DNA of 64,000 bases from Balneolaceae bacterium (GTDB lineage: Bacteria > Bacteroidota > Rhodothermia > Balneolales > Balneolaceae), in the NCBI GenBank assembly GCA_020832285.1, contig JAFIFB010000085.1:62001-126000 (forward strand), in the 5' to 3' direction. Positions 45,332 to 64,000 of the stretch are shown here, one piece after another. The position numbers and the translations under genes were made by a program. Each line of letters opens with the position of its first letter. Position 1 is the stretch's first letter. The notes under the pieces are model-generated. The model searched no databases, had not been told where the DNA came from, and was given only the letters and a program-made list of their open reading frames with translations.

Positions 45332-46348
45332 TTATAGCTGCGCGGGTTCTTTTGTGGAGCTTCTGATCATCAATTCCGGGTCCATAATCACCTGAACGGT
45401 TTCGCGGCCCGGATCATCAACCCGCTGGAAGAAGAGCTCGGCAGCCCTGCGCCCCATTTCGTAGGCGGGCTGCCGTATGACAGTAAGTGGCGGGCTGATC
45501 GCTTTGGCCCAAGGCATATCATCAAAACCTACAATGGAAATATCATCGGGAATTTTTAGCCCGAATTCGTTAATCGCTTCAAGGGCGCCGAGGGTCATCA
45601 GGTTGTTCGTTGCGAAAATTGCTGTGGGCCTGGGGTTTTGGTTCAGGAGTTCAAACGTAAGCTCTTTTGCATGCTCAGCGCTTTTGGTGTCCCCTTCCTT
45701 AATAAAATTTGAATTAACCGGAATTTGATGTTGGCTGAGTGCCATTTCGTATCCCTTTTGGCGATCTTCAAAAGAAGAAAAATGTGGGGCACTGGTCAGA
45801 ATAGCGATATGCTTATGCCCGAGACCAATCAGATGCGAAACCGCAATGTGCCCTCCCTTTACATTATCAACCACTACCGTATCAATCGATTCCCTTGTTA
45901 GTTTCCTGTCTACACAAACAATGGGTATACCAGACTCAATTAATCCTTCAATCACTTTTCCGTATTGGTGTATGGGCGGCAGGATCACTCCGTCAACAGA
46001 TTCGGAACGCAATACATCAAGGTAAAATTTCTCTTTGGCCGGATTTTCATCTGAGTTGCAGAGAATTACAGCATAGTTTTTTTGATAGGATACATCTTCG
46101 ATTCCTCTGACGATATTTGAGTAGAATTGATTTTTTATATCGGGAATAATAAGGCCCAGCAGCTTGGACTGACCTTTACTGGTTCGCAGGCGCTGAGCAA
46201 CCCTGTTCGGCTGGTACCCAAGTATTTTCATTGCCTGTTCTACCCTTTGGCGGGTTTGTGGATTCACTTTTTCCACATCATTCATAACCCGTGAAACGGT
46301 TGTAATAGAAACTTCAGCTTGTTTGGCGACTTCTTTTAAAGTTGGCAT
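45332..46348 (-). CDS. LacI-family transcriptional regulator, probable regulator of the inositol locus
   Basis: 338 residues. The N-terminal LacI helix-turn-helix and hinge are [33 protein letters not shown] followed by [15 protein letters not shown] periplasmic-binding-protein-like effector domain follows ([45 protein letters not shown]). It is divergent from iolE across a 219-base region holding two palindromic sites, one 18 bases from its own start, so it probably represses itself, iolE and the importer operon. The expected inducer is an inositol intermediate, by position only. Confidence 0.92.
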
Positions 46349-46366
46349 GTGTCAGATACAAATCAG

Positions 46367-46380
46367 TGAAAACGTTTTCT
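46367..46380. promoter_or_regulatory. LacI-type operator O1, before the regulator gene
   Basis: TGAAAACGTTTTCT, with the perfect core GAAAACGTTTTC at 46368-46379, ends 18 bases upstream of the regulator's start. It shares the core with the sites at 46488 and, with one change, 57255. A central CG in an A/T-rich half-site pattern is typical of LacI/CcpA-type operators. Confidence 0.75.
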
Positions 46381-46487
46381 GCAAAGGGTATGGCCAGAGA
46401 AGTTAAGCTGCATCTCCGGTATTTCAATTGCCTTTTGAAAAATTTGGAAAGAATATAATAAAAAACGAGATCAGTTGATCTTGAATA

Positions 46488-46505
46488 TATGAAAACGTTT
46501 TCATA
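46488..46505. promoter_or_regulatory. LacI-type operator O2, before iolE
   Basis: A perfect 18-bp palindrome, TATGAAAACGTTTTCATA, 62 bases upstream of the iolE ATG. A weaker inverted repeat, AGATCA-GT-TGATCT, lies just before it at 46468-46481. Confidence 0.8.
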
Positions 46506-46567
46506 GTTTCTTTTATTTACCGCATTTTGGTTTAAATTTTTTTTTAATCTAACGGTTTTCTTTCGTT

Positions 46568-47464
46568 ATGAAGATTGCAAACGCTCCCTGCTCCTGGGGA
46601 ATTCTTGAGTTCGGCCTGGATGGCAAAACAGACAGTTATGATAAAGTAATGGATGAGATGCTGGCCACCGGATATGATGGAACCGAATTGGGTGATTGGG
46701 GTTTTTTTCCCACAAATTCCGATGAACTTAAAGCCGAACTCAGTCACAGAAACCTCAACCTGGTGGGGGCATTTGTACCTGTAAATTTTGTTAATAAAAA
46801 CGATCATCAGGCTGGAGAAGAGCTTGCATTAAAAACGGCCCGGCTGATGCAAAATGCAGACCCCGAAAATGCGCGGATCGTTCTGTCGGATGATAATGGA
46901 AAAAACCCTATCCGAACAAAAAATACTGGCAGGATCAAACCTGAACATCAATTATCAGACTCTCAATGGTCTGTCTATGCTGCTGGAGCAGAAACAGTGG
47001 CTCGTCGTGTGTATGATGAAACCGGACTGAAATCGGTTTTTCATCACCATTGCGCCGGTTACGTAGAAACACCGGATGAAATTGAAGAACTCCTGAAGCG
47101 CACCGACCCCGAACTTCTTAGCCTATGCTTTGATACAGGCCACTACGCATTTGGCGGAGGCAATCCGGTTGACGGCTTGAAAAAATTTTACAACCGGATT
47201 GATCATGTCCATTTTAAGGACTGGGATCAAAATATTTTTTCAAGCGTCAAAGAAAACAGTTGGGACTATTTCGAAGCTGTTGGAAATGGAATTTTCTGTG
47301 AGCTTGGAAAAGGCTCCATCGACTTTCAGGCAGTGCTGAATGAACTGAGAAACCGGAACTACACCGGCTGGATAGTGGTGGAACAGGATATTCTGCCGGG
47401 GATGGGTTCTCCTAAAGAGAGCGCATTACGCAACAGAAACTACCTGAAATCACTTGGAGTCTGA
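46568..47464 (+). CDS. IolE-like inosose dehydratase / sugar phosphate isomerase-epimerase family
   Basis: 298-residue xylose-isomerase-like TIM barrel. NAPCSWGILEF near the start, GYDGTELGDWGFFP, FHHHCAGYVETPDE, LCFDTGHYAFGGGNP and DHVHFKDWD give the metal and substrate pattern of IolE, which dehydrates scyllo-inosose to 3D-trihydroxycyclohexane-1,2-dione. The pathway role rests on context: convergent with iolD, divergent from the LacI regulator, next to a full iol set. No signal peptide. The enzyme could instead be an inosose isomerase (IolI-like), but no other dehydratase candidate is present. Confidence 0.85.
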   Translation: MKIANAPCSWGILEFGLDGKTDSYDKVMDEMLATGYDGTELGDWGFFPTNSDELKAELSHRNLNLVGAFVPVNFVNKNDHQAGEELALKTARLMQNADPENARIVLSDDNGKNPIRTKNTGRIKPEHQLSDSQWSVYAAGAETVARRVYDETGLKSVFHHHCAGYVETPDEIEELLKRTDPELLSLCFDTGHYAFGGGNPVDGLKKFYNRIDHVHFKDWDQNIFSSVKENSWDYFEAVGNGIFCELGKGSIDFQAVLNELRNRNYTGWIVVEQDILPGMGSPKESALRNRNYLKSLGV

Positions 47465-47494
47465 ACACAGCAGTTTCAACCGGCCGCTGGTGGT

Positions 47495-49357
47495 TCAGAA
47501 ATAATTTCGCTGCTTTTTTCGGGCCTTTTCATACTCTTCTCTTGCCTTATTCACAGAATCAAGCTTTGAAACCTCGGCCACCGGAACATCCCACCAAGAG
47601 TTGTATCCCGGCACTTTCTGAGTTTTGTCCACAGATACCACAATAACCTGGGTTTGATCGGCCTTAATGGCTTTATCCAGTGATTCCCTCAGTTCATCGT
47701 ACGATTTGGCTTCATGCACTACCACACCATAACTCCTTGCATTCATTACAAAATCTGTCGGGAGATGGCTTCCCTCAAGCTGACCCGATCCGGATTTTCT
47801 GTAGCGGTAGTTAGTCCCGAAACCTTCCGAACCAACCGATTCAGAAAGTGATCCGATGCTCCCGAAACCGTGGTTATTTAACAGCACAATTGTGATTTTT
47901 ATACCTTCCTGAAGAGCTGTGGTTATTTCGGAAGATAGCATCAGGTAAGAACCGTCTCCCACCATCACAACGACTTCTTTTTCCGGCTTGGCCATTTTTA
48001 CGCCGATACCTCCCGCTATTTCATAGCCCATACATGAATAGCCATACTCAAGATGGTAACCTCCCGGCTCATAAGCTTTCCAGAGTTTGTGAAGGTCACC
48101 AGGCAGACTGCCGGCAGCACAAACCACAACCGACTCTTTTCCGGCAGCTTCATTAACTGTACGAAGTACATTGGGTTGCTGTAATTTATCGATCGACGGA
48201 ATGCTGGTCACACGGTCAATTTCCTCATCCCACCGCTCTTTTCTTTCCCCGATAACTTCGTCATATTTCTCATCGACATGAAAATCTCCCAGTGCACCTG
48301 ATAATAGCTGTAGAGTTACTTTAGCGTCACCTAAAAGCGGCAGTGAAGAAAGTTTATGAGCATCGAGCGAGCAGACATTAATATGGATAAATTTCACACG
48401 AGGATTTTGGAACTGGCTCTTGGATGAGGTGGTAAAATCGCTGAGCCTGGTTCCAATCAACAGAATTACATCAGCCTCTTCAGCGGTTTCATTCGCAGCG
48501 AGTCCACCCGTGGCACCGATAGAGCCAAGATTCTGCGGGTGATCGTGAGGAAGAGCACTTTTGCCCGCCTGTGTTTCCGCCACAGGAATTCCGGTCGATT
48601 CAACAAATTTTTTAAGTTCTTCCGTGGCCTCGCTGTAGTGAACACCTCCGCCGGCAATAATAAGTGGTTTTTCAGACTGTTTGATAACATCAGCGGCTTC
48701 TGAAAGTAGTGTCTCATCCGGGCGGTTACGGGGAATATCCCAGATTCTTTTCTCAAAAAGTTCCAAAGAGTAATCGTGTGCTTCGGTTTGTACATCCTGA
48801 GGCATACAGAGCGTTGCCGTTCCCGTTTCGGCCGGATTGGTGAGAACACGCATCGCTTCCAGCATAGACCAGGGAAGCTGGTCAGGCCGGTTGATCCGGT
48901 CCCAATATTTCGAAACGGGTTTAAAAGCATCATTCACCGATACATCCTGGCTGAGCGGGAATTCAAGCTGCTGGAGTACGGGCCCCACATTCCGGCGTGC
49001 AAAAATATCACTGGGAAGCAGTAAAAGCGGAATCCTGTTGATGGTTGCTGTGGCCGCCCCGGTAATCATGTTGGTTGAACCCGGTCCCACCGATGCAGTA
49101 CAGGCAAAGATTTGCAGCCTGTTTTTTGCTTTTGCGAAAGCTGTGGCGGTGTGTGTCATCGCCTGTTCGTTCCGGCATAAATAGTAGGGCATTTCGGGAT
49201 CTTCGTGAAGAGCCTGAGAAATTCCCGCCACATTGCCATGCCCGAATATTCCCCAGACGCCTTTAATAAACGGCTGTTCAATTCCATCACGCCGAACATA
49301 TTGATTTTTAAGAAAACGGATCAGTGCCTGAGCGGTTGTTAATTTTTTTGTATTCAT
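47495..49357 (-). CDS. iolD: 3D-(3,5/4)-trihydroxycyclohexane-1,2-dione hydrolase (IolD)
   Basis: 620-residue thiamin-diphosphate enzyme of the acetolactate-synthase fold that opens the inositol ring to 5-deoxyglucuronate. The N-terminal Pyr domain has the activating Glu in YLCRNEQAMTHTATAFAKA. A central Rossmann-like domain has ADVILLIGTRLSDF. The C-terminal PP domain has VMVGDGSYLMLSSEITTALQEGIKITIVLLNN, the GDG-to-NN ThDP-Mg motif. FGTNYRYRKSGSGQLEG is characteristic of IolD. It is separated from the rest of the iol operon by 435 bases with a small frame and a palindrome. Confidence 0.94.
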   Translation of the reverse strand: MNTKKLTTAQALIRFLKNQYVRRDGIEQPFIKGVWGIFGHGNVAGISQALHEDPEMPYYLCRNEQAMTHTATAFAKAKNRLQIFACTASVGPGSTNMITGAATATINRIPLLLLPSDIFARRNVGPVLQQLEFPLSQDVSVNDAFKPVSKYWDRINRPDQLPWSMLEAMRVLTNPAETGTATLCMPQDVQTEAHDYSLELFEKRIWDIPRNRPDETLLSEAADVIKQSEKPLIIAGGGVHYSEATEELKKFVESTGIPVAETQAGKSALPHDHPQNLGSIGATGGLAANETAEEADVILLIGTRLSDFTTSSKSQFQNPRVKFIHINVCSLDAHKLSSLPLLGDAKVTLQLLSGALGDFHVDEKYDEVIGERKERWDEEIDRVTSIPSIDKLQQPNVLRTVNEAAGKESVVVCAAGSLPGDLHKLWKAYEPGGYHLEYGYSCMGYEIAGGIGVKMAKPEKEVVVMVGDGSYLMLSSEITTALQEGIKITIVLLNNHGFGSIGSLSESVGSEGFGTNYRYRKSGSGQLEGSHLPTDFVMNARSYGVVVHEAKSYDELRESLDKAIKADQTQVIVVSVDKTQKVPGYNSWWDVPVAEVSKLDSVNKAREEYEKARKKQRNYF

Positions 49358-49792: not shown

Positions 49793-49793
49793 A

Positions 49794-50732
49794 TTACTTT
49801 TTATGTATCAACTTTCCGATCGATTCGGCTACACTTCTGGGATCCTTCTGATTTGGATAAAGTACATTCCTTCCGAACATCGCACCTCTTACCTGGTGCC
49901 CGGAAGCGAGAGCCAATTCCAAATTGTTAAGCACATCCTTCAGCGGACTGTTTCTGTCACCGCCAAGAATAACAATGGGCAAAGTGGTAGAAGCTGCAAC
50001 AGTATGAAACTGCTCTGTATATGGAATTTTCAGCCATATATTCCGGCTGCTGTTACCAAGAGCGGACGTAACCGAAATAAGTTTGATCAGTGGCTCTGGC
50101 TCTTTCAACACAGCATAACCGTTCGTTGTTTTTTTCACCGGCAGCGGTTCGAGAAATATCGGCAAATGATACTGATTCATCTCTCTCACACCCTGTGCGC
50201 AGTATTCAATGGTTTTGAGTGAATCGTACTCAGCCAGATCAACTCTTAGCAGCATTTTGGCAGCATCGATTCCAAATTCCTTGCAGGTCCTCGCATCGGT
50301 TCCGGTAATAGGATCGTTCAGTTCCCACGCAGCTCCCGGTAGTCCGCCTCTGTTCAGGCTTGTAATCAGCAGTTTATCATCCAGGAACCCATCGTCTGAC
50401 TCATTCATTAATCCGTGTAAAATCAGAAGCTCTTCAAGGATGTCCATACTTCCGAGCACTCCGTCTACCCAGGGAGATTTGAGTGTACTGATTAGTCTTG
50501 CAAGCAAATCGTGACGGTTGGCCATAGCAAAAGGTTCATTCCCGACAGAAACACTGCCGCGCGCGGGATGGTCGGCCGCTACGATATTCAATTTGCCATC
50601 GGGCACAAATGTTTGCCGGCGTTTCCGTATTTGGGATGAATTCAGAGCAAAGTTTGGCTGTTCAACTCTTACTGTGGTAATTTGCTGAAAAAGTGTATGG
50701 GGAATTATATTTTCTTTATTAAATGAGTTCAT
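49794..50732 (-). CDS. Cgl0159-type (beta/alpha)8 aldolase-like protein of inositol catabolism
   Basis: 312 residues from ATG 50732, which follows a GGGAAAG ribosome site and lies 13 bases after the iolC stop; an upstream ATG at 50771 would overlap iolC. It has the DeoC/LacD-like barrel look: LNIVAADHPARGSV (catalytic-barrel strand), VDGVLGSMDILEELL, LLITSLNRGGLPG, IFLEPLPVK, IWLKIPYTEQF and PIVILGGDRNSP. Such Cgl0159-type proteins replace IolJ in several inositol clusters and probably cleave 2-deoxy-5-keto-gluconate-6-phosphate to DHAP and malonate semialdehyde. The reaction is inferred from position. Confidence 0.8.
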   Translation of the reverse strand: MNSFNKENIIPHTLFQQITTVRVEQPNFALNSSQIRKRRQTFVPDGKLNIVAADHPARGSVSVGNEPFAMANRHDLLARLISTLKSPWVDGVLGSMDILEELLILHGLMNESDDGFLDDKLLITSLNRGGLPGAAWELNDPITGTDARTCKEFGIDAAKMLLRVDLAEYDSLKTIEYCAQGVREMNQYHLPIFLEPLPVKKTTNGYAVLKEPEPLIKLISVTSALGNSSRNIWLKIPYTEQFHTVAASTTLPIVILGGDRNSPLKDVLNNLELALASGHQVRGAMFGRNVLYPNQKDPRSVAESIGKLIHKK

Positions 50733-50745
50733 ATTCTTTCCCTTT

Positions 50746-51762
50746 TCACAGGCCGCCTCTTTCATCCACAAATTCTTCTACTTCATCAAGTGTGGGCATA
50801 AAATTGGCGCAGCCGTGCCGGGTTACCACAATCGCACCGCAGGCATTCCCGAGGCGTGCTGATTTCTGCCACTTCCATCCCTGAAGGTGTCCGTAAATCA
50901 ATCCGCTCGCAAACGCATCCCCTGCACCCAATGTGTTTACAATATCCACAGGAAAACCGGGGGCGTGTTGTGGTTCTGTACCATCTGCAAAGTGAACGTA
51001 ACAACCTTCTGTGCCTGACTTTAAAAGCAGAACCTCAGCTCCTCTTGAAAAGAGCCGCCGGATACTTTCATCCAGATCAGCTTTCACTTCCGATTCGTTC
51101 ACTTGGGAATGGCTCACAACGGCTTCACCCTCGCCCATAAATGCACCCGCTTTTACCTCTTCAGATGTACCAATAATCACATCAACATATGGCAGAACCG
51201 AGCGGATCACAGTTCCGAACGTCTGAACATCGGGCCACTGATCAGCCCTGAAATCGATATCCAAAAACACCGTAATATTATTTTCCCGGGCAAGTTCAGC
51301 GGCCAAAATGGTTGCTGAACGGGAAGGTTCCAGGCTTAGGCCGGTCCCGCTGATCAAAACTGCCTTAAACGTATCAATGGGTATGTTTTGAACATCCCGG
51401 ATATCAATCGCGATATCTGCACAATTATCTCTGTAATAGACGAGAGGGAATTTATCGGGAGGCTCAATGCCAAGAATCACTGCACTGCTTCGCCGCCCCA
51501 TTTTTTTGGCTACGTAAGTCGTGTCCACGCCTTCTTTATTGAGGAAATGGAGGATAAAATCTCCGACCGGGTCAAACCCAACACCAGTCAGAAGGGATGA
51601 ATTGAGTCCTAGACGTCTTGTTCCCACACTGATATTAGTAGGGCAGCCTCCCACAAATGCAGAAAAGCTCCCGATTTCTACAAAAGGTTTGCCAATGTCG
51701 TTCGAATAGAGGTCAATGGAACTCCGCCCGATGCATAAAATGTCGTTTTGAGAGTGTGACAT
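50746..51762 (-). CDS. iolC: 5-dehydro-2-deoxygluconokinase (IolC)
   Basis: 338-residue PfkB/ribokinase-fold kinase that phosphorylates 5-keto-2-deoxygluconate. The N-terminal substrate part ILCIGRSSIDLYSNDIGKPF, GGCPTNISVGTRRLG and LTGVGFDPVGDF are typical of IolC. The C-terminal PfkB signature VDIVNTLGAGDAFASGLIYGHLQ carries the catalytic Asp. No fused DUF2090/aldolase domain, as in many proteobacterial IolC proteins; a separate aldolase gene follows. Start ATG 51762, 145 bases after iolB, with a hairpin in the gap. Confidence 0.94.
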   Translation of the reverse strand: MSHSQNDILCIGRSSIDLYSNDIGKPFVEIGSFSAFVGGCPTNISVGTRRLGLNSSLLTGVGFDPVGDFILHFLNKEGVDTTYVAKKMGRRSSAVILGIEPPDKFPLVYYRDNCADIAIDIRDVQNIPIDTFKAVLISGTGLSLEPSRSATILAAELARENNITVFLDIDFRADQWPDVQTFGTVIRSVLPYVDVIIGTSEEVKAGAFMGEGEAVVSHSQVNESEVKADLDESIRRLFSRGAEVLLLKSGTEGCYVHFADGTEPQHAPGFPVDIVNTLGAGDAFASGLIYGHLQGWKWQKSARLGNACGAIVVTRHGCANFMPTLDEVEEFVDERGGL

Positions 51763-51907: not shown

Positions 51908-52678
51908 TTACTGAAATTCGGGCTGGGTGTTTACATCTCCCCAAGAGCGTTCCATTGAGGGATCAAGCGTGGCCATAATCCAGACAAAATTGATCGGATG
52001 GCCCGGAATTGCCACGTTGGGATGATATCCACGTTTAATCACTACCGCATCATTTTCATAGACAGGACCAAGATATTCTGGATCTTCGAGGTCATCATAT
52101 ACAAGCTGAATTCCAAATGATGGCGGCGGCATCTCGAAGTAGAGATAAATTTCCTCTTTGGTGGCCGCGTGTTCATGCGGTGCCCAGCTTGTCCAGTTGC
52201 CATCTTTACTGAAGATGAGTCCGCCGAGCAGCCGGCTGGCGGGCACGTTTTCATCAATTAACCTGTGAATTTTACGGTGGCAGCCGTCGAAGCCCAGATC
52301 CTGCGTGAGTTCAGGGTCTTCATTCAGCACTTTAAATGGCACGAAAACCGGATCGCCTTCTTTGTCAGAAGGAGCGGTGCATTCAACAATATCGAGTGAG
52401 CTTTCGGTACGAATGGTTCCGCTCTGCCCGGGAGGAAGAAACAAGGTGTCGTATGGTTTCAGCGAAAAACTTTCACCGTTCAATTCAACAGTTCCTTCTC
52501 CTTTCATGCAGATCAGTCCGGCTTCGAATTTTGGATTTTGGTACTCCACTTCCGAAAGTTCGTTATCAAGAATTGTTCTGATATAACCCAATGCCTCCAG
52601 CTCTGAGTTTTCGGGTGTGATGATCCAGTTACGGCCTTTTTTGCTGCCTGTATTTTTAAAAATTACATTTTTTTTCAT
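51908..52678 (-). CDS. iolB: 5-deoxy-glucuronate isomerase (IolB)
   Basis: 256-residue double-cupin protein that isomerises 5-deoxyglucuronate to 5-keto-2-deoxygluconate. Family segments are EGTVELNGESFSLKPYDTLFLPPG in the first cupin and TSWAPHEHAATKEEIYLYFEMPPPSFGIQLVYDD in the second, where the HEH and Glu bind metal. VIKRGYHPNVAIPGHPINFVWIMA is also diagnostic. It starts 4 bases after the iolG stop in a tight operon. Confidence 0.94.
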   Translation of the reverse strand: MKKNVIFKNTGSKKGRNWIITPENSELEALGYIRTILDNELSEVEYQNPKFEAGLICMKGEGTVELNGESFSLKPYDTLFLPPGQSGTIRTESSLDIVECTAPSDKEGDPVFVPFKVLNEDPELTQDLGFDGCHRKIHRLIDENVPASRLLGGLIFSKDGNWTSWAPHEHAATKEEIYLYFEMPPPSFGIQLVYDDLEDPEYLGPVYENDAVVIKRGYHPNVAIPGHPINFVWIMATLDPSMERSWGDVNTQPEFQ

Positions 52679-52682
52679 CGGT

Positions 52683-53747
52683 TCAGCCTGCTGTTTTTTC
52701 TTTTAGGATTTCAGTTTTCAGCGCATATTCCATCGCCTTGTTATTGATGGTTACCGGTAGTTTCTGGTGAAGTGAAAAGGTTGCGGCATGTCCCACAAGC
52801 AGTGCTCTCTCGCCATCTTCGATGGTGACGGAAGGCGGCTGCTGGGTGTGTGCTTTCTCAACAAAATCTTTGAGTTGTGTTACATACGATTGTTCAAACC
52901 GTTCCATAAAAAAGGGAACAGTATCGTGAGTTACGCCCTCCTTTTTGAGTATGGTAATGGGTGTTTCCCGCAGATAACCGATCTGTATGGTTCCTTCGGT
53001 TCCGAGAATTTCCGTCTTGATGTCGTAACCGTAAATTCCGCTTCGGGTCATATCGGCTGATCCGATGGTTCCTGATTCGAATTCCAGGGAAACCACCGCA
53101 TTATCTATGTCGTTGATCGTTTTCATCTCCGGATATGCAAGGACATTGCCCACGGTATATACTTCGGCCACATCACCCATGAACCATCGCGCGAGATCAA
53201 AATCGTGAATTCCCATGTCCAGAAGCAGGCCGCCGCTCATTTTCGGGTCGGCATACTCCAGGCTGGGCCGGTACGGATCTCTGGAAGTGGCTTTAAAAAC
53301 AATCGGTTTGCCGATCTCACCGGCCTTTATTCGTTCCATGGCCGCTGCATATCCGCGGTCGAACCGCCTCATAAAGCCCATGTGAAAAAACAGGCCCGCA
53401 TTTGCGACTGCCTCTTTCATCTGTACGGCTTCATCAAGTGAGAGTGAGAGCGGTTTTTCACAAAAAATCATTTTCCCTTTTGCGGCCGAGTCAATCACAA
53501 TATCCCGGTGAGTGCTGGTTGGACTTACAATGACCACGGCATCAAGTTCTTTCAGTTCAAGCATATCCCGGTAATCAGCAAATCTGTGCATGATGCCAAA
53601 CCTTTCCCCGATTTCTTCGGTTTTTACCATATCGGCATCAGCAATGGCTGCAACATCAGCATCAGGAATCTGATATTGCAAATACTCAACATATAAACTA
53701 CCCAGGCGGCCGAGGCCTACCACACCGGTTTTCAATTTACTTTTCAT
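52683..53747 (-). CDS. iolG: Inositol 2-dehydrogenase (IolG)
   Basis: 354-residue Gfo/Idh/MocA-fold dehydrogenase oxidising myo-inositol to scyllo-inosose with NAD+. The N-terminal Rossmann motif is VVGLGRLGSLYVEYL, and FCEKPLSLSLDEA carries the catalytic EKP Lys. The C-terminal sheet domain has MGIHDFDLARWFMGDVAEVYTVG with a conserved His-Asp. The family also contains other sugar dehydrogenases; the position between the sugar-binding protein and iolB supports IolG. It starts 14 bases after the binding-protein stop. Confidence 0.88.
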   Translation of the reverse strand: MKSKLKTGVVGLGRLGSLYVEYLQYQIPDADVAAIADADMVKTEEIGERFGIMHRFADYRDMLELKELDAVVIVSPTSTHRDIVIDSAAKGKMIFCEKPLSLSLDEAVQMKEAVANAGLFFHMGFMRRFDRGYAAAMERIKAGEIGKPIVFKATSRDPYRPSLEYADPKMSGGLLLDMGIHDFDLARWFMGDVAEVYTVGNVLAYPEMKTINDIDNAVVSLEFESGTIGSADMTRSGIYGYDIKTEILGTEGTIQIGYLRETPITILKKEGVTHDTVPFFMERFEQSYVTQLKDFVEKAHTQQPPSVTIEDGERALLVGHAATFSLHQKLPVTINNKAMEYALKTEILKEKTAG

Positions 53748-54727: not shown

Positions 54728-55681
54728 TTATGCTTTCGATTTTTTAAGATTTGTATCAAGCAGAATAGCCCCGATTATTACCGAGCCAATCACAATCTGC
54801 TGTATAAATGAAGAAACTCCAAGTAAGTTCAGGCCGTTGCGCAGCACCCCGATAATCAACGCACCAATGAGCGTGCCTACCACCGTTCCCTTGCCGCCGA
54901 AAAGACTGGTGCCGCCGATTACTGTAGCGGCAATAGCGTCCAGTTCGTACATAATTCCGGCAATGGGCTGAGCCGAATTGAGCCTGGCGGTAAGCATTAC
55001 TGCGCCGAGGGCACTGAGCAGCCCTGCAATTCCGTAAATGATATTCAGGTAAAGTTTGATATTGATACCCGACAATTTGGCCGCCTCTACATTGCCTCCA
55101 ATCGCATATGTGTAACGCCCCATCTTGGTTCGAGTGAGCACAAAATGGGCGATGGCATACACTACAACCATAATGATGACCGGCACAGGAATGTGAAATA
55201 TTTCACCATTGGCCAGAAACCGGAAACTGTCGTCAAACCCCGAAATCGGGCGGCCATCGGTGTACCATAAACCGGCTCCGCGGGCAATGCTCATCATACC
55301 GAGAGTTGCAATAAAAGGGGGTATGTTACCATATGTAACCAACAGGCCGTTTACCAGGCCGCAGGAAAACCCAACGGCAAAGCCCACAAGAATTCCCACC
55401 GGAATGGGTAAACCTGCATGAAGCACACTGGCCATCACCACTCCCGAAAATGCCAGAACCGAACCGACGGATAGGTCAATGCCTGCGGTAATGATCACAA
55501 AGGTCATACCCACTGAAATCACAGCAATAATGGCCGACTGCTGTGCCACATTCAACAGGTTTGAAGTGGATAGAAAATGCGGAGACAGGATCGTAAAAAG
55601 CACACAGAGGGCAATCAGCCCAAAGAGTGTTCCAAACTGCCTCATTTGCATAAAATCGAGATCTTTAAACAGAGATTTCAT
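54728..55681 (-). CDS. ABC transporter permease, ribose/inositol type
   Basis: 317-residue RbsC-like permease with eight to ten membrane segments. VISVGMTFVIITAGIDLSVGSVLAFSGV (about 52-79) and IAATVIGGTSLFGGKGTVVGTLIGALIIGVLRNGLNLLG near the C-terminus are diagnostic of carbohydrate-uptake transporter family 2. It overlaps the ATPase gene upstream by 17 bases, so the two are translated together. It forms the inner-membrane channel of the putative inositol importer. Confidence 0.93.
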   Translation of the reverse strand: MKSLFKDLDFMQMRQFGTLFGLIALCVLFTILSPHFLSTSNLLNVAQQSAIIAVISVGMTFVIITAGIDLSVGSVLAFSGVVMASVLHAGLPIPVGILVGFAVGFSCGLVNGLLVTYGNIPPFIATLGMMSIARGAGLWYTDGRPISGFDDSFRFLANGEIFHIPVPVIIMVVVYAIAHFVLTRTKMGRYTYAIGGNVEAAKLSGINIKLYLNIIYGIAGLLSALGAVMLTARLNSAQPIAGIMYELDAIAATVIGGTSLFGGKGTVVGTLIGALIIGVLRNGLNLLGVSSFIQQIVIGSVIIGAILLDTNLKKSKA

Positions 55682-57176
55682 ACGGCTCCCCCAACGCGTA
55701 TTTCATGATTTGCTCCTGTGTTGCTTTTTCACCCGGAATTTCGGCTTCAATTCTGCCGTCTCGCATCACCAGTATCCGGTCACTCATACCGAGGATTTCC
55801 GGCATCTCCGAAGAGATCATAATGATGGCGATTCCATTTGCAGTTAATTCATTCATAAGATGGTAGATTTCCGTTTTAGCCCCTACATCAATCCCGCGGG
55901 TTGGTTCATCGAAAATGAATATTTTTGCATCAGAACAGAGCCATTTACTGAGCACCACTTTTTGCTGGTTTCCTCCACTAAGGTTCACACAAAGCTTGTT
56001 TCTTGTAGGAGTTTTAATTTTCAGTTTGTCGATATATTCATCAACCACTGCATTTTCTTTTTTAAAGTTGATAACACCTCTCCGGAGAAACTTCCTGATG
56101 TTTGGCATAGAAATGTTTTGTTTAACCGGTAAATCCAGTACAAGCCCTTCATGTTTTCGATCTTCCGTCACCAACCCGATTCCGGCATTTATCGCATCCC
56201 GGGGTGATTTTAGTTCCAGTTTTTTACCATTAATTAAAATGGTACCGCTTTTTATAGTTTCCGCTCCAAAAAGTGTTTTGGCAAGTCTCGTACGTCCGGC
56301 TCCCATCAGGCCGGCGATACCCAGTACTTCCCCTGTTCTTAATTCGAAGGAGATATCTTTCAGCCGCTGTTCCACATTCAGGTTTTCAACCTTCAGAACT
56401 ACATCACCGACTTTTGCTTTCTGTTTGGGGATGTGATCATCCAGCGATCGGTTCACCATCATCTTAACCATATCGTTACGTGTTATTTCTGATGCAGGCT
56501 TCGTGCCGATGTATTGTCCGTCACGAAGAACAGTCACTCTGTCTCCGATTTCGAAAATTTCCTGGAGACGGTGAGAAATGTAAATAATGGCTACACCCTG
56601 CTTTTTCAAGTCAAGAATGGTCTGAAAAAGCGATTCAATTTCGTTGTTTGAGAGAGAAGCGGTGGGTTCATCCATGATTAAGATCCGGGCATCCAGCGAA
56701 AGAGCCTTGGCCACCTCAACCATCTGCTGCATGGCTACACCCAGCGATTCCACTTTCTGTTTTGCACTGATCTTTACGTTGAGCCCGTCGAGAATCGCCT
56801 GTGCATCCCTGTAAAGCCTGGGCCAGTTGATAACTCCCGGAAGGATGGCCGGTTCGCGACCCATAAAAATATTTTCTGCAACCGACATGTATGGATTCAG
56901 GTTAAACTCCTGATAGATGATACCGATGCCCAGCCCCTGTGCATTTGCCGGGGTGCCAATCTCAGTTTTTTTCCCGTTGATGTAAATATCTCCGCTGTCT
57001 TTGGAATAGGCGCCGCTCAGAATTTTCATCAGGGTGGATTTTCCCGCACCGTTTTCTCCGAGAAGAACATGAACTTCCCCCGGTTTCAGATCGAAATCTA
57101 CATCATCCAGAGCCAGCACACCCGGAAACTGCTTCCGGATTTTTTTCATCTCCAAAATATAATCTGAATCGGGCAT
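55665..57176 (-). CDS. ABC transporter ATP-binding protein with two nucleotide-binding domains, ribose/inositol type
   Basis: 503 residues with two ABC domains. The first has Walker A GENGAGKSTLMKILSG, a signature region GVAMQQMVEVAKAL and Walker B RILIMDEPTASL. The second (about 256-500) has a degenerate Walker A (GLMGAGRTRLAKTLFG), signature LSGGNQQKVVLSKWL and Walker B KIFIFDEPTRGID. This RbsA-like asymmetry is normal for the family. It is the first gene of the minus-strand importer-iol operon and has a LacI-type operator 79 bases upstream of its start. Confidence 0.94.
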   Translation of the reverse strand: MPDSDYILEMKKIRKQFPGVLALDDVDFDLKPGEVHVLLGENGAGKSTLMKILSGAYSKDSGDIYINGKKTEIGTPANAQGLGIGIIYQEFNLNPYMSVAENIFMGREPAILPGVINWPRLYRDAQAILDGLNVKISAKQKVESLGVAMQQMVEVAKALSLDARILIMDEPTASLSNNEIESLFQTILDLKKQGVAIIYISHRLQEIFEIGDRVTVLRDGQYIGTKPASEITRNDMVKMMVNRSLDDHIPKQKAKVGDVVLKVENLNVEQRLKDISFELRTGEVLGIAGLMGAGRTRLAKTLFGAETIKSGTILINGKKLELKSPRDAINAGIGLVTEDRKHEGLVLDLPVKQNISMPNIRKFLRRGVINFKKENAVVDEYIDKLKIKTPTRNKLCVNLSGGNQQKVVLSKWLCSDAKIFIFDEPTRGIDVGAKTEIYHLMNELTANGIAIIMISSEMPEILGMSDRILVMRDGRIEAEIPGEKATQEQIMKYALGEPYEISV

Positions 57177-57254: not shown

Positions 57255-57270
57255 ATGGAAACGTTTTCAT
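57255..57270. promoter_or_regulatory. LacI-type operator O3, before the importer-iol operon
   Basis: ATGGAAACGTTTTCAT is a 16-base palindrome with a single mismatch and matches the iolE operator in 15 of 16 positions. It lies 79 bases upstream of the ABC ATPase start and 134 bases from the 3' end of the phospholipase gene. Confidence 0.75.
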
Positions 57271-57403: not shown

Positions 57404-58582
57404 CTATTCCGTAATCAAATGGTTTTCACAGCCCGGTGGTGCGCTTACCGGATTACATCGTGCAGGGCCTTCTGCCCCTGGCAACGCTACAATATAACCT
57501 GTCCCAAACGGGCTGGGCTCCGGGTAATCGGTACTGATATACTGAGCACCGCTATTAAGGGCGTTTTCACGGCGGGTGGTATCACCCGATATGGCTTCCT
57601 GCGCGGGAATGTCGGACCGGGTGCGGATCAGGTAACCTGCCTGAACCCGTTCATGAATCAATTCATACCCTTCGAGAGCGTTGTTCATTTTGATAAATCC
57701 TGCCGAGGGCTCGCCCGGTTCCGAGCTGGTAAACATCACCCTGTTTTCGAGAATTTCAGAACGCGAGAGATAGGCATCCCTGTGAGAGCCTTCATTATCG
57801 AGCATAAATAGAATACGGCCTCGGCTTTCGGCAAGTGTAGGCCATCCATCTGCGAGAATAGCTTCTTCAAGGGTTGTGTGGTTACCACGCACATCGTCGG
57901 GGGTGATCACGTGTCCCGGCTCAAAAACACTCCATATTTCATCATCAATGTCAAAAATGTTCCATTCATCCACACGAACAGCTTCCTGAAAAGTAAAATC
58001 TCCACGATCGTCGGGCGTGTTGTCTTTCACTTCGATTAAAATTGCGAGAGGAAGGTGGTCAGGATTGTTTAAAGACCATTGTCTGACTTCAAGGAGGCAG
58101 CTTTGCAGGGTCAGGCAGGTAGATCGATAATCGGTATCCTGCACATGCAATACTTTGTAACCGGGCTGATACATTTCATTGGGACGAATAAAGCGCTGGT
58201 CATCACTCTTAATCGCTCCCAGCGGTTCTGCAAATAGACCGCCATCTGGATCGGCAAAAATATCAAGTTCGATCTGACGGATCTGGAGTTCTGAAAACTG
58301 TTCGATCAATGGCCTGTGTTCATATAGAATACCGATCGCCCTACCCGGTGATTCTGCATTCATCAGCTTTGCAAGTTTTTCAGTGGGGGCCAGTTTATAG
58401 CTGTTATGTGTACCCAATACCTGAATTTGGTTCAGCCGGATGCAGTCATCAACGTTCTCTTCCGTAATTTCATCACAATCGTTTGCAGTTTTCTCAGATG
58501 AGGTAGTGTGAACATTCAGCCACAGTATGAAAAACGACATACAAAAACTGATCAGCAAATCTCTTTTTATGTGTATAAACAT
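57404..58582 (-). CDS. Secreted Ca2+-dependent phosphoinositide-specific phospholipase C (PI-PLC-C1-like)
   Basis: 392 residues. A signal peptide (about 1-28) exports it. The barrel shows the catalytic set of Ca2+-dependent (eukaryote-type and Streptomyces) PI-PLC: His59-Asn60 in VLGTHNSYK, Glu105 and Asp107 in RQIELDIFADPDGG, His146 in KVLHVQDTD, and Glu184 in LAILIEVKDN. These correspond in order to His311/Asn312, Glu341/Asp343, His356 and Glu390 of mammalian PLC-delta1, the acid-base pair and Ca2+ ligands. It should split phosphatidylinositol into diacylglycerol and inositol phosphate. Its location between a SusCD/lyase block and the inositol importer supports a nutritional role. Confidence 0.88.
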   Translation of the reverse strand: MFIHIKRDLLISFCMSFFILWLNVHTTSSEKTANDCDEITEENVDDCIRLNQIQVLGTHNSYKLAPTEKLAKLMNAESPGRAIGILYEHRPLIEQFSELQIRQIELDIFADPDGGLFAEPLGAIKSDDQRFIRPNEMYQPGYKVLHVQDTDYRSTCLTLQSCLLEVRQWSLNNPDHLPLAILIEVKDNTPDDRGDFTFQEAVRVDEWNIFDIDDEIWSVFEPGHVITPDDVRGNHTTLEEAILADGWPTLAESRGRILFMLDNEGSHRDAYLSRSEILENRVMFTSSEPGEPSAGFIKMNNALEGYELIHERVQAGYLIRTRSDIPAQEAISGDTTRRENALNSGAQYISTDYPEPSPFGTGYIVALPGAEGPARCNPVSAPPGCENHLITE

Positions 58583-58710: not shown

Positions 58711-60474
58711 TTACCCGATTTTTAATTGATGATGAAATGGGGTAAAACCGGTAAGATACACCCTGTATCCATCGGGCTGTATGCCACCGTTGTGAACGGT
58801 GTATTGTTCATTCGGCTGAGGCGGCCTTGTATGCTCTTTCAGGCCGGGGCCAAAATGGATGATATCGTTCCCAACCTGATATGACCCGTATCCATCCTTC
58901 AAAAAATAGGCATCCGGATCATTTTCTCCCGGAATAACACCAGTTAGTTCACCGCCTTTTCTGAAACATAATTCTACGGTTACAGGTACATTCTCAGTTT
59001 GATCCACAAGAAATTCCAGGTCAAAAGCTCCGTTTTCATCAATCTCTTTTATGACAACTTGCATTCGCAATACCATGTAATCTTTCGGGCGTTTTTCAAA
59101 TTCCATTTTACTGAAGAACCGTCCGTCGGGTGAAAGTTTGTATCTGCCGTCACGGTTTCTGTATTTGCCGGTAAGCGGCTGGTGATAGGCAACTTTACGT
59201 TCCTGTTTCAGGTGAAATGAATTATCAATAACTGTTAAACCATTACTTCTGAAATATCCTGTGGAAAAAAAAGCTGGTGACATCCGAACCGATTCAAGTA
59301 TGGCATCGCCTTTTCGAAATTTGAAAAATGTGGGATTGGTTGAAAGACCCGACCATGCACCATAGCCCAGATGCCAATCGGTCCCGCCAAAAACAGATGC
59401 TGTGGTTTCTTTTCTTCGTATTCGAATCAGGTCAGATCCCTTTAAATAATTGGAGTATCTATCAGGAAGCTTTTCAGGTTCAGGCAGAGGCTGGTTCAGT
59501 TCTTCATGCAGCAATAAATCGGGTAGTGCATCACTCAAATTAGAAATAAAATTCTCTTCGATATGTTTTGCAACTTCTGCAAAGTGCGGATTTTGGTCTA
59601 AGATTGCCATAAACCTGTAAGGGATGTAATAGCGGTGAATCATCACGTTACGGCCCGGGTCCTGATCTTGACGCCGCGATGCAACGGTTTCAACCTCACC
59701 ATTTCTTTCAATCAGATATAGAGTCATTTCCAGGTTTTTACGGATGTAATGAAGCAACTCCTCCCGTTTTAAAAGAATGGCTACATCTAAAAGCCCTTGA
59801 TTGTTTACAGCAGCATCATAATTCGGGCTTCGTTCGGGATGTTGTCCATCGGCATCCTGCCCGATTCCCTCGCCAAGCCAATCGTTTATTCTTTCGGGAT
59901 AGGCGGGATCGGGATAGAGTGTATGAACACCGGCAAGGGCTGCGCAAATTGCCCAGCGATGATTAGGCGTATGCACACCACCTTTAACCAGTGCATCAGA
60001 TGTATTAATAATAATGGTTTGCAGTAACTTTTGGAGGCTGTAGGTATGATCGGAGTTGTCATTTATCAGAAGTGCCTGTGCCCGCCATAACTGTTCTATC
60101 ATGAATGCGGAATCGGGCGGGGACTGAAGGTTGCCCGAATCGAACGTGCCATTTGGATATTGGTTTCGCAGCAGTACGGCGGCGATCTCTTCAAGGGGGC
60201 TAATCAGATTTTTATTCCTGAAATTATCCGACTCATTTGCGGAATGAGCAGCCGATAGAGCCAGTATAAAACCACTGAAAGAGCGGTTATGATTTCTTGC
60301 TTTAAGCTGTTCAAAATTATTCAACAGCTCCTGCACTCTCTGGTCGTTTACACGTGTAATAGAAGTGATGAGGTTTTGACTTTTTTGAGGCTTATGACCC
60401 ACAGAAGACTTGCCAAAGACCAGAACTCCCAAAGATGCACCGACTCCGCTTTTTAAAAATTCACTTCGTTTCAT
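58711..60474 (-). CDS. Secreted protein of unknown function resembling alpha/alpha-toroid polysaccharide lyases
   Basis: 587 residues. The N-terminus (MKRSEFLKSGVGASLGVLVFG) looks like an export signal of the Tat-like 'twin-basic' type, though it has KR instead of RR. About residues 45-320 are helical and have the segment HTPNHRWAICAALAGVHTLYPDP (Asn171-His172) and DADGQHPERSPNYDAAVNNQGLL (Asp209, Tyr219), an arrangement like catalytic Asn/His and Tyr residues of heparinase II/III- and alginate-lyase-like toroids. Residues about 340-587 are beta-rich, as in the sandwich domain of such lyases. No named family is certain. It lies between SusD and the phospholipase gene on the same strand. Confidence 0.65.
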   Translation of the reverse strand: MKRSEFLKSGVGASLGVLVFGKSSVGHKPQKSQNLITSITRVNDQRVQELLNNFEQLKARNHNRSFSGFILALSAAHSANESDNFRNKNLISPLEEIAAVLLRNQYPNGTFDSGNLQSPPDSAFMIEQLWRAQALLINDNSDHTYSLQKLLQTIIINTSDALVKGGVHTPNHRWAICAALAGVHTLYPDPAYPERINDWLGEGIGQDADGQHPERSPNYDAAVNNQGLLDVAILLKREELLHYIRKNLEMTLYLIERNGEVETVASRRQDQDPGRNVMIHRYYIPYRFMAILDQNPHFAEVAKHIEENFISNLSDALPDLLLHEELNQPLPEPEKLPDRYSNYLKGSDLIRIRRKETTASVFGGTDWHLGYGAWSGLSTNPTFFKFRKGDAILESVRMSPAFFSTGYFRSNGLTVIDNSFHLKQERKVAYHQPLTGKYRNRDGRYKLSPDGRFFSKMEFEKRPKDYMVLRMQVVIKEIDENGAFDLEFLVDQTENVPVTVELCFRKGGELTGVIPGENDPDAYFLKDGYGSYQVGNDIIHFGPGLKEHTRPPQPNEQYTVHNGGIQPDGYRVYLTGFTPFHHQLKIG

Positions 60475-60656: not shown

Positions 60657-60678
60657 ATATAATCTGTAATGAGAGAAA

Positions 60679-60713
60679 CTGCCCCGGTCAAAGCCTTAAC
60701 TCGACCAGGGCAG
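60679..60713. repeat. Second hairpin downstream of SusD
   Basis: CTGCCCCGGTC (60679-60689) pairs with GACCAGGGCAG (60703-60713) with one mismatch, 26 bases after the SusD stop. It is followed on the minus strand by a T/C-rich stretch; together with the terminator at 60623 it forms a double stop. Confidence 0.5.
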
Positions 60714-60738
60714 CAGGTCTTATATTTTCAAAATTGAT

Positions 60739-62403
60739 TTAGTAACCAGGGTTTTGCTCAAGATAACCGGGCTCACCCTGAGCTGCATCAATAGCATTTT
60801 GCGGAATCGGGAAAACACGCTTTTGAACATCACTCACGGGTTTGTCTCTCCAGGTCCCTTCAGTATAGGTACCGAAACGGACCTGAATTGTTCGGGTCTG
60901 GTGTTCCTGATACATCTCAAAAATCCATTCACGCTGCAAGTCGCTCATTGTGCTCAATTCATTTGCAGATAACTGTCTGGAGCCACGTGCTGCCCGCACA
61001 GTGTTAATGTCATTCAGTGCCTCTCCCCAGTTACCAAGACGGGCATGGGCTTCGGCCCGAGACAGATACATTTCTCCAAGGCGGAACACAGGGATATTGA
61101 TAGAAGATTCACTTCCCTGGCGATATTTGTCATTATCCCATTTGATGGAACGGGCGCCAGCCAGGTGGCCACGGTCTGTTTCAAGACCCACTTCACGAGT
61201 ATAGATCATGGTTTGTCCGCTACGTGCGTTATCCACAAGTGGAAGAATCAACAAATTTCCATCTTCATCTTGCTGGTACACATTCGGCCCGCCGGTGTCC
61301 GGAACAATACCGTATTGCTGGCCAATCTGTACGCCACGATTCCAGCGGAATTCTTCAGCAGTAACAGAGCCTTCGTCCGGTATAAACCGATGGTAATAAC
61401 GCGGATCATCCCGTTCTCCTTCCCACATATCGTAAAATTCCTGGGTTAGTGCACCACCATCGGTACCTGTTTTACTGGTATGCCAGGGATTCCCATGCCG
61501 GTTTCTTGAGGAGTGAAAGTAAGACAAGCGGTGCCCGCCGCCTGTTTCGGGCTGCTGATTAAAGGCGAAGATAATCTCCGGATTTCCCTCATTCTCCTTC
61601 CCGAACAGGTAGAAATAGTTTTCATTTTCGAGCTGAAAATACCCGTCATTTATAAGCTGTGTAGCATTACTGATTACAGCCTGCAGAGTGGAAGGGTCGT
61701 GAGAAGGACTGGATGCGTACCGGTTATCATAGATGGCCCTGTTTAGCAGCAATCTTACTCTAAGTGCGATGGCGGCATCCCTGTTGAATCGTGTTTCATT
61801 CGCACTCGCTCGCGACAATTGTTCCTGAACGGCATCAAGTTCACCGAGAATGTAATCTACGGCTTCAGAATTTCTGTAAACAGTAGAAAGTGCAGGTGTA
61901 CCAATATCTTCCGGTCTTTTATCAAATACAACATTGTAAAGATCAAGTAACCAGTAGTTGTAGAGTGCTTTTAATGCCCTTGCTTCGGTAACGAGCCTCT
62001 GGTCGCCGCCAAGATTGGCAATAGTTTGTTCAGCAATAGCACCCCGGCCAACTCCCTGGGTTAAATTTTGCCACACACTGATAACGGTGGTATGCGTGGG
62101 TCCCCAGGAGTGCTGATGCATTTCTATGAACCGTCCGCCGTCGAACCAGTCGGTTCCTCCCCGGAAGGGTACAATCTGTTCTATGGATGAGACACCCTGA
62201 AGATTGTTGAACCAGTTATGTCTTTCCAGAGGTTCCAGCATTCGTTCATAAACAGGAGCCAGAATCTGTTCCGGAGCGTTTGGAGAATTCAGTGCTTCCT
62301 GTTGCAGGGCCGTATCTCGTACGGTTTCTCCAAGATCAGTACATGAGTACAGCAGAACTGCCATTAGGAGTAAACTTACTTTATTAAATAATAATTTTTT
62401 CAT
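60739..62403 (-). CDS. SusD/RagB-family outer-membrane nutrient-binding lipoprotein
   Basis: 554 residues. The lipoprotein signal ends at Cys21 (MAVLLYSC). SusD-like TPR helices and the conserved C-terminal RagB segment are visible: VPVFRLGEMYLSRAEAHARLGNWGEALNDINTVRAARG (written here as IPVFRLGEMYLSRAEAHARL), then LQREWIFEMYQEHQT, and ending in VFPIPQNAIDA. SusD covers its SusC partner and captures the oligosaccharide or other ligand at the cell surface. It starts 25 bases after the SusC stop. Confidence 0.94.
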   Translation of the reverse strand: MKKLLFNKVSLLLMAVLLYSCTDLGETVRDTALQQEALNSPNAPEQILAPVYERMLEPLERHNWFNNLQGVSSIEQIVPFRGGTDWFDGGRFIEMHQHSWGPTHTTVISVWQNLTQGVGRGAIAEQTIANLGGDQRLVTEARALKALYNYWLLDLYNVVFDKRPEDIGTPALSTVYRNSEAVDYILGELDAVQEQLSRASANETRFNRDAAIALRVRLLLNRAIYDNRYASSPSHDPSTLQAVISNATQLINDGYFQLENENYFYLFGKENEGNPEIIFAFNQQPETGGGHRLSYFHSSRNRHGNPWHTSKTGTDGGALTQEFYDMWEGERDDPRYYHRFIPDEGSVTAEEFRWNRGVQIGQQYGIVPDTGGPNVYQQDEDGNLLILPLVDNARSGQTMIYTREVGLETDRGHLAGARSIKWDNDKYRQGSESSINIPVFRLGEMYLSRAEAHARLGNWGEALNDINTVRAARGSRQLSANELSTMSDLQREWIFEMYQEHQTRTIQVRFGTYTEGTWRDKPVSDVQKRVFPIPQNAIDAAQGEPGYLEQNPGY

Positions 62404-62427
62404 GATTTCAACCTGAATTTAGGATGG

Positions 62428-64000
62428 TTAGAGTGTCAAATTGATTGAAAAGCTGACGGACCGGGCAGATGGATATCTCGAGCTGTCAATTCCCATCGAA
62501 CGGAAACCACCAACCGATCTCGGCCTGTCAACTTCAGGATCAAATCCGGGATAATCTGTGATTGTGAAAAGGTTGCGTCCGGTAACGGATAGTATCAAAC
62601 CGTTCACAGGAAGATTTATCGTGTTGAATGAATAACTCAGCGTTGCATTATTCAGCCGGAAATAACTACCGTCGTACACAAATCGTGAGGAAGCTGTGGC
62701 TGGATTGGTGGAGCCTTCATTTGGGTCGAAACCCACTCTTGCGATATTGTTACCAGCATAGAGCTGCGGCATATTGAAAAGGGCGTTATGGTCGTTCCAG
62801 TAAATCTTATTTCCGGATACGCCATTAAAATTCAGGCCAAGGTCCCAGTTTCTGTAACCCAGTCTGGCGGAGATTCCATACTCAAAGTCGGGGAGTGCGC
62901 TTCCTGGTGATACCCGGTCTGCATCCGTAATACTTCCGTCTCCATCTACATCTCTGAAGATGTTCTCACCATTTTCATCGAGCCCCTGGAATTCAAATAC
63001 CCAAAATGATCCAAATGGCAGTCCGTTTCTGAACACCTGAACGGTTTCACCTGAAAGGCCGCGGCCAGTGATGGAGCCTGTTCGGATCTGATCCACCGGC
63101 ATATTTCTGATTTCGTTGTCCAGGAAAGAGATGTTGCCTCCTATATCAAAACTGATGTCTGTTCCAAACTGCTGTCGGTATCTCAGATCCAGTTCAATCC
63201 CCTTGTTTACAACCTCCATATCATAATTGCTCCAGAATGAGCTGGTTGCTGCAATGGGATCTACACCGGTCGTGGTTTCGATGAGGATATCGCTTGTTAC
63301 TTTACGAAATACATCCATCGTACCGTAGAGTGCATCATTAAAGAAGGAGAAGTCCAGGCCGATATTGGACTGTGTGGACACCTCCCACCGGATGTTTTCG
63401 TTTTGTGTACGCACAAACGTGATACCTGGAGTGATGGAACCGGGGTTTAGCTGATAACCTGCCCGGGTGGCTACATTAATTCGCTGCTGGGTAATTCCAT
63501 CCGGAATATCCTGGTTTCCGGTTTGACCCCATCCGGCTCTCAGTCTCAGGTTCGAAAAGGTACTGCCCGACATGAAACTCTCATCAGTGATTTGCCATGC
63601 GGCTGAAAATGAAGGGAAGAATCCATAACGGTGATCATCACCAAATCGTGAAGATCCGTCGGCCCGCAATGTGGCGGTAAAAAAGTACCGCTGCAAATAG
63701 TTGTAATTCGCCCTGCCGAAGAAAGATTGCAGCTCGTTCTTGGCAGAAAAACCAGTGGGCAGATCGGCTGTCGTTACGTTTGACCCAATACCCGGGTTGT
63801 GGTAGGCATTGATCTCGGTTGTGGTAAAATCGCGTACGGCAAAGCTTCTTCCTTCACGCACAAACTGCTGATATGAGAATCCGGCCAGCAAGTCGATATT
63901 GTGATTCTCTAAAGAAGTAATGTAGTTAAGCGTGCTTTCTGTCTGAAACATGCTGTTTTCACGGTTGCCAAAATGGAAAGCTCCCTGGGGTGCAGCAATT
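62428..64000 (-). CDS. SusC/RagA-family TonB-dependent outer-membrane transporter, C-terminal part (5' end outside window)
   Basis: The frame is open to the right edge, so the signal, carboxypeptidase-like domain and plug lie outside. What remains is the second half of the barrel, with repeated amphipathic strands: SFSAAWQITDESFMSG, LRLRAGWGQTGNQDIPDG, LDFSFFNDALYGTMDVFRK, ISFLDNEIRNMPV, and the SusC-typical DVDGDGSITDADRVSPGSALPDFEYGIS. It ends in an aromatic/hydrophobic strand (SVSFSINLTL). It imports the ligand held by SusD using the proton-motive force passed by TonB. Confidence 0.93.
   Translation of the reverse strand, partial: IAAPQGAFHFGNRENSMFQTESTLNYITSLENHNIDLLAGFSYQQFVREGRSFAVRDFTTTEINAYHNPGIGSNVTTADLPTGFSAKNELQSFFGRANYNYLQRYFFTATLRADGSSRFGDDHRYGFFPSFSAAWQITDESFMSGSTFSNLRLRAGWGQTGNQDIPDGITQQRINVATRAGYQLNPGSITPGITFVRTQNENIRWEVSTQSNIGLDFSFFNDALYGTMDVFRKVTSDILIETTTGVDPIAATSSFWSNYDMEVVNKGIELDLRYRQQFGTDISFDIGGNISFLDNEIRNMPVDQIRTGSITGRGLSGETVQVFRNGLPFGSFWVFEFQGLDENGENIFRDVDGDGSITDADRVSPGSALPDFEYGISARLGYRNWDLGLNFNGVSGNKIYWNDHNALFNMPQLYAGNNIARVGFDPNEGSTNPATASSRFVYDGSYFRLNNATLSYSFNTINLPVNGLILSVTGRNLFTITDYPGFDPEVDRPRSVGGFRSMGIDSSRYPSARSVSFSINLTL

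Follow-up and report, generated by a model that had tools for sequence, protein, structure and literature searches.

A SusCD and phospholipase C module that shares LacI-type operators with an inositol catabolic operon in a Balneolaceae bacterium

Introduction

Why should a SusC/SusD pair and a predicted exported phosphatidylinositol-specific phospholipase C (PI-PLC) stand directly before a set of genes for inositol catabolism, and are the two parts regulated together? The question is raised by one end of a 64,000-nucleotide stretch of DNA from a Balneolaceae bacterium, here called the window (contig C7:62001-126000 in a 5.33-Mb genome). A preliminary description of this sequence saw in it a complete route from the outer membrane to the cytoplasm, and regarded a SusCD system coupled to phosphoinositide cleavage and inositol catabolism as undescribed.

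One half of that coupling has in fact been published. In Flavobacterium johnsoniae, depletion of phosphate induces a locus, PUSI, that comprises PusCD1, a Ca2+-dependent PI-PLC (PF16670) and a phosphodiesterase of family PF00149, according to the available part of PMC8115612 (in whose Table 1 PF16670 and PF00149 stand against each other's names). Inositol catabolic clusters have also been surveyed and were reported in 3% of 2,227 Bacteroidetes species; the accessible portion of that survey (PMC9430895) does not mention SusCD or PI-PLC. At the level of titles and abstract openings, we found no literature on SusCD, PI-PLC and iol genes in one locus; among the papers whose text was searched, none mentions both SusD and "inositol catabolism".

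Gene content of the locus

The genes named in the preliminary description were all recovered from the open reading frames and profile scans, with the ABC permease and ATPase identified from their sequences:

45332-46348, minus strand: LacI-family regulator of the locus (PF00356, PF13377)
46568-47464, plus strand: IolE-like inosose dehydratase (TIGR04379, 210 bits, below the cut-off of 290)
47495-49357, minus strand: IolD (TIGR04377, 908 bits, above the cut-off of 715)
49794-50771, minus strand: Cgl0159-like aldolase (PF22649, 1.6e-74)
50746-51762, minus strand: IolC (TIGR04382, 378 bits, above the cut-off of 300)
51908-52678, minus strand: divergent IolB-like isomerase (PF04962; TIGR04378, 85 bits, below the cut-off of 205)
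52683-53747, minus strand: IolG inositol dehydrogenase (TIGR04380, 351 bits, cut-off 355)
53762-54721, minus strand: ribose-type substrate-binding protein (PF13407)
54728-55681, minus strand: ABC permease (named from sequence)
55665-57176, minus strand: ABC ATPase, first gene of the ABC/iol operon (named from sequence)
57404-58582, minus strand: Ca2+-dependent PI-PLC, predicted to be exported (PF16670, 384 bits, cut-off 29.9)
58711-60474, minus strand: p587, a 587-residue, probably exported protein (no Pfam or NCBIfam match)
60739-62403, minus strand: SusD-family protein (PF07980)
62428-65442 (L001:4428-7442), minus strand: SusC (plug and CarbopepD_reg_2 domains)

On the minus strand, susC, susD, p587 and the PI-PLC gene are followed, after a gap of 227 bases, by the genes for the ATPase, the permease and the binding protein, and then by iolG, iolB, iolC, the aldolase gene and iolD, while iolE (plus) and lacI (minus) diverge around 46349-46567. 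The susC gene extends past the window, its first 1,442 bases lying beyond the end at 64000. SusC and SusD are encoded side by side, as in SusCD systems and polysaccharide utilisation loci (PULs). A PUS is defined by SusCD beside a phosphomonoesterase or phosphodiesterase, and here the PI-PLC is the only gene that answers to this definition.

IolD and IolC exceed their equivalog cut-offs and IolB, IolE and IolG fall short of theirs, yet the best equivalog was the iol one each time. The Cgl0159-like aldolase is probably a stand-in for IolJ, judging from the position of its gene. The permease is 88-92% identical to those in the iol clusters of four relatives, in which the gene order around the ATPase is also kept. 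IolA is encoded on another contig (C97:98334-99764; TIGR01722, 570 bits, cut-off 448.5), and neither a phosphatase, phosphomonoesterases included, nor a further phosphodiesterase was seen in the locus among the ORFs and profile scans; "complete" is therefore too strong a word for the route.

The arrangement recurs in a sister genome, G405, where a 5-kb contig (L033, which contains L067 and L078) repeats susD, p587, PI-PLC and ATPase genes at 88-97% identity, and L101 repeats lacI, iolE, iolD and the aldolase gene. As G405 shows the same order, the junction between the SusCD/PI-PLC and iol genes is not an error of a single assembly.

Compared with known systems, the locus shares with PUSI a SusC/SusD-type pair and a PF16670 Ca2+-dependent PI-PLC, but PUSI, as presented in the available text, has a PF00149 phosphodiesterase, whereas here no PF00149 was seen and LacI-type operators and iol genes are present. 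With the surveyed inositol clusters it shares iolB, C, D, E and G, an aldolase and an importer, and it differs from them in its Cgl0159-like aldolase, its divergent IolB and IolE and the location of iolA on another contig. Similarly, SusCD, exported enzymes and a regulator recall a classical PUL, except that a phospholipase is the only exported enzyme recognised and the LacI-type regulator is common to cytoplasmic catabolism.

Operators

The "matching operators" of the preliminary description proved to be real. When the intergenic regions were scanned for palindromes, copies of TGAAAACGTTTTCA turned up at four places, one of them past the window:

46367-46380: operator copy, one mismatch to TGAAAACGTTTTCA
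46490-46503: operator, perfect 14-bp palindrome (18 bp including flanks), between lacI and iolE
57256-57269: operator, one mismatch, upstream of the ATPase gene
65975-65988 (L001:7975-7988): operator, perfect, upstream of susC, beyond the window

In the 5.33-Mb genome only two perfect matches exist, and both are in the locus (in the lacI/iolE gap and upstream of susC). When one mismatch is allowed, there are seven places, against one for the reversed control pattern; four are the intergenic copies in the locus, and the remaining three lie inside ORFs, which from their sequences encode a sulfatase-like, a 220-aa and a Gfo/Idh/MocA-like protein. The operator lies near the general LacI/CcpA-type consensus, and thus another LacI protein could bind it.

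Upstream of susC, the operator begins three bases after a promoter-like site (TTGACA-17-TATAAT), and upstream of the ATPase gene it follows a similar site (TTGACA-17-TATAGT; 57302-57274, minus strand) by four bases. Promoter-like sites were no more numerous in the scans of these two regions than in shuffles, so the weight rests on the promoter-operator layout common to both genes. The susC site of this genome lies about 532-546 bases before the start codon, with none within 300 bases, and the promoter-like site would imply a leader of about 530 bases. The 532 bases from operator to susC start (L001:7443-7974) contain no ORF longer than 61 aa and, like L001 as a whole, no Rfam match at gathering thresholds.

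Operator-like sites also precede susC in relatives. Within 600 bases of the gene, they were found in four of eight genomes, the one studied here included, at up to two mismatches and in six of eight at up to three (controls, 0/108 and 3/108); within 300 bases, the counts were 3/8 and 5/8 (controls, 0/129 and 2/129). The control regions came from window positions 1-44000, from 26 rpoB loci and, outside the genus, from four more loci. In G364, G332 and G119 (two mismatches each) and in G406 (three), the site precedes susC by 81-89 bases, those of G332, G119 and G406 not being independent, as these genomes are close kin; in G199 a site with three mismatches lies 198 bases before the gene. No operator-like site was found before susC in G108 or G408, of which G408 has the LacI orthologue and G108 does not.

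Co-occurrence of PI-PLC and IolD

PF16670 has matches in 28 of 394 genomes of the phylum (weak and partial ones in two of them) and in 13 of 98 relatives. For IolD, the figures were 18/394 and 11/98, counting only matches above the curated cut-off because at E <= 0.001 the profile matched all 14 control genomes.

Within the genus (28 genomes), PI-PLC is present in ten, all of which have IolD; 17 genomes have neither, and only G401, which is 62% complete, has IolD without PI-PLC (Fisher 8.4e-7, uncorrected for kinship). Other parts of the system follow the same pattern: IolA (E <= 1e-100) was found in nine of the ten PI-PLC genomes and in G401, and the LacI orthologue (E <= 1e-90) in nine of the 28 genomes, namely eight of the ten and G401. 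G364 has no LacI orthologue match; its iol contig stops beside iolA, at the position that lacI occupies in G401. By contrast, a control gene, xylose isomerase, does not track PI-PLC (8/10 vs 11/18, p 0.42).

Of the 28 genomes, 24 were placed on an rpoB tree, which omits G401 and G411 (no match) and G402 and G410 (short fragments). PI-PLC and IolD agree in 24/24 rows of this tree, with at least five changes needed, the discordant G401 being among the genomes omitted. The ten PI-PLC genomes do not form one clade (p-AU 1.9e-5), and the independent pairs on well-supported branches number only two, which is not significant.

The preliminary description had held that its idea would fail if relatives regularly carried SusCD and PI-PLC without the inositol genes. 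With regard to adjacency this was the case: in eight of the ten genomes the SusCD/PI-PLC genes were not seen beside the iol genes. Outside the genus, the phylum sample holds 22 PI-PLC genomes and 12 IolD genomes with an overlap of 0.

Neighbourhoods in relatives

SusD is encoded beside PI-PLC in nine of the ten genus genomes, with p587 between them in five; in the tenth, G397, a fragment of SusD remains at this place. The iol cluster adjoins SusCD/PI-PLC only in the genome studied here and in its sister G405, and such adjacency is the exception in the genus. PI-PLC and iol genes share a 41-kb contig in G397, and a single contig of G108 carries them at a distance of 126 kb; in the remaining PI-PLC genomes they are on different contigs, neither within the stretch examined around the other.

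G397 offers a further view of the connection. Its SusD fragment is separated from a divergent gene by a region with two one-mismatch sites, and a SusC gene inside its iol cluster has a perfect site upstream. In a SusC tree, the product of this gene falls with the PI-PLC-linked SusC of G194, and a starred set unites it with all 15 of the PI-PLC-linked SusCs entered. This is suggestive of its belonging with them, in a tree from a quick search that had only three long outgroup rows, of which two were partial. The closest counterparts of the window SusC are those of G364 and G408, a placement that differs from the rpoB tree and suggests transfer within the genus. In G108, the iol cluster adjoins a different SusD/SusC pair (about 30% identical; L103:16015-19999) that has no operator sites.

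Altogether, the tie between the PI-PLC/SusCD operon and the iol operon is supported by the operators, by the co-occurrence in the genus and by the susC sites of relatives, and to this extent the coupling proposed in the preliminary description stands.

Phosphatases and phosphate scavenging

A PI-PLC should yield inositol phosphate, and consequently a phosphatase would be needed. The genome has seven PF00245 matches in six places. Among relatives, G408 has an alkaline phosphatase gene directly before iolG, and G397 has two Exo_endo_phos proteins, a GDPD and a phosphodiesterase-like protein between PI-PLC and iol. PF00149 proteins are encoded near PI-PLC in G397, in G199 and in the distant loci L047, L048, L053 and L056, while ten PI-PLC neighbours scanned in G278, G282, G219, G325 and a Rhodoferax MAG included no phosphoesterase (PF00149 among them), SusCD or inositol gene, and one neighbour scanned in L055 was not PF00149 either. 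In the Rhodoferax MAG, one neighbour is an outer-membrane barrel protein with a CarboxypepD_reg domain.

These genes bear on the possibility that SusCD and PI-PLC gain phosphorus, as in PUSI, and lie beside iol by chance. PUSI, which the available part of PMC8115612 describes as PusCD1, a PF16670 PI-PLC and PF00149 under phosphate-depletion induction, is a precedent, and L048, from the distant genome G174 of the phylum, carries SusD, SusC, FecR, sigma, PI-PLC and PF00149 genes in that order; PI-PLC also occurs without IolD in the phylum sample outside the genus. Nevertheless, phosphate scavenging seems to us an unlikely purpose for the locus of the window, whose operators are common with the iol operon and recur elsewhere (at up to one mismatch) only inside ORFs, whose PI-PLC co-occurs with IolD in the genus, and in which no phosphatase or other phosphodiesterase was seen.

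The phospholipase and p587

The PI-PLC matches PF16670 across the entire profile (1-329 of 329), and its closest named relatives, on Balneolaceae MAG contigs, are 93% and 63% identical; a search for related loci returned four. The family profile matches the phosphatidylinositol-specific phospholipase C1 of PDB 3h4w (7.1e-12) and the Ca2+-dependent PI-PLC of 5fyo (2.8e-12) over about residues 156-285, but the N-terminal part, with a conserved histidine, has no significant alignment to either. In an alignment of 18 sequences, H59, N60, D107 and H146 are invariant and E105 is nearly so; by comparison with other PLCs, these are candidate catalytic residues. The PF00388 profile gave no matches, and none in the controls either, and hence is uninformative; the family here is PF16670.

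The family also shows variation that deserves mention. A lipobox-like cysteine starts the PI-PLCs of several relatives and is absent from the window copy (57404-58582; alignment A3), so its location in the cell may differ from theirs. Proteins of PF16670 type, 55-56% identical to that of the window, are encoded on MAG contigs titled Gammaproteobacteria and Rhodoferax (L035, L036), either through cross-phylum transfer or through misbinning. Weak partial matches in L029 and L030 (39-40 bits, model positions 112-236) possibly represent another family. Additionally, G332, G119 and G406 have extra PI-PLC copies (L040:2037-11663, L042, L110, L112), which in G332 stand after consecutive genes for Gfo/Idh/MocA oxidoreductases, a pair of DUF6807 proteins and an ApbE (the ORFs of L042 have the same sizes, sizes being all that was compared), and which perhaps serve another substrate.

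Regarding p587, the preliminary description called it toroid-like, and this could not be confirmed. Nothing convincing was found in Pfam, NCBIfam or PDB sequences, and an AlphaFold model built from two sequences, with its first part drawn as helices and its last as strands, is unusable (mean pLDDT 32). Among ten aligned homologues, several have RRxF-like N-termini and two match a TAT-signal model weakly. p587 was found in nine of 98 relatives; the five that belong to the genus all have PI-PLC, and the other four lack it. In a distant locus (L053:3399-16347), a single run encodes GH92, a p587 homologue, DUF4861, PI-PLC and a PF00149 metallophosphoesterase, after which comes a hybrid sensor regulator, an arrangement that hints at mannosylated inositol lipids.

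Such sugar-related neighbours raise the possibility that SusCD imports glycosyl-inositols or other free cyclitols and that the PI-PLC homologue cuts some other phosphodiester or has a minor part. p587 itself, the Gfo/Idh/MocA, DUF6807, 3-keto-disaccharide hydrolase or GH92 genes near PI-PLC in some relatives, and the fact that SusCD systems mostly handle glycans all suggest sugars. However, of the enzyme genes only that for PI-PLC adjoins SusCD in every one of the nine loci of the genus that have SusD, and p587 has no match in five of the ten PI-PLC genomes of the genus, which makes this alternative improbable.

Discussion

We consider it probable that a PUSI-like SusCD/PI-PLC module has been recruited into an inositol regulon, that the headgroups of inositol phospholipids serve as carbon, and that one LacI represses both operons. 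A mere coincidence, in which the number of catabolic loci rises with genome size in the genus and operator-like sites arise from a widespread LacI consensus, is very improbable, since xylose isomerase does not track PI-PLC and the control regions gave only 0/108 and 3/108 sites at two and three mismatches, even though genomes with both PI-PLC and IolD tend to be larger and the consensus is LacI-like.

Under recruitment into the inositol regulon, the two operons and the lacI/iolE region would form a single regulon. SusC, SusD, p587 and PI-PLC would act at the cell surface and in the periplasm, where SusCD may bind or import inositol-containing lipid or glycolipid headgroups and PI-PLC would split them into inositol (cyclic) phosphate and diacylglycerol. 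Inositol would then be freed by a phosphatase encoded elsewhere, brought in by the ribose-type ABC importer and degraded for carbon by IolG, IolE, IolD, IolB and IolC together with the Cgl0159-like aldolase and the distant IolA. LacI would repress both operons through the TGAAAACGTTTTCA operators, and inositol or an intermediate of the pathway would probably release it. The eukaryotic algal or protist lipids named as the source in the preliminary description are a guess; actinobacterial or archaeal inositol lipids would also fit.

A bolder version may be put forward tentatively, although we find it doubtful: the system would be dedicated to inositol glycolipids, p587 would be a new family of exported enzymes that trims sugars (mannosides, GPI-like glycans) before PI-PLC acts, and the module would have spread horizontally in the genus, persisting only with the iol regulon.

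Each module is ordinary; the finding is their union, apparently under one regulator, in one genus. If the proposed recruitment is correct, a SusCD system would serve a phospholipid headgroup as a carbon source, beyond glycans or phosphate, and one repressor would coordinate outer-membrane capture with the cytoplasmic breakdown of inositol. It would also offer a testable reason for the presence of Ca2+-dependent PI-PLCs in free-living bacteria.
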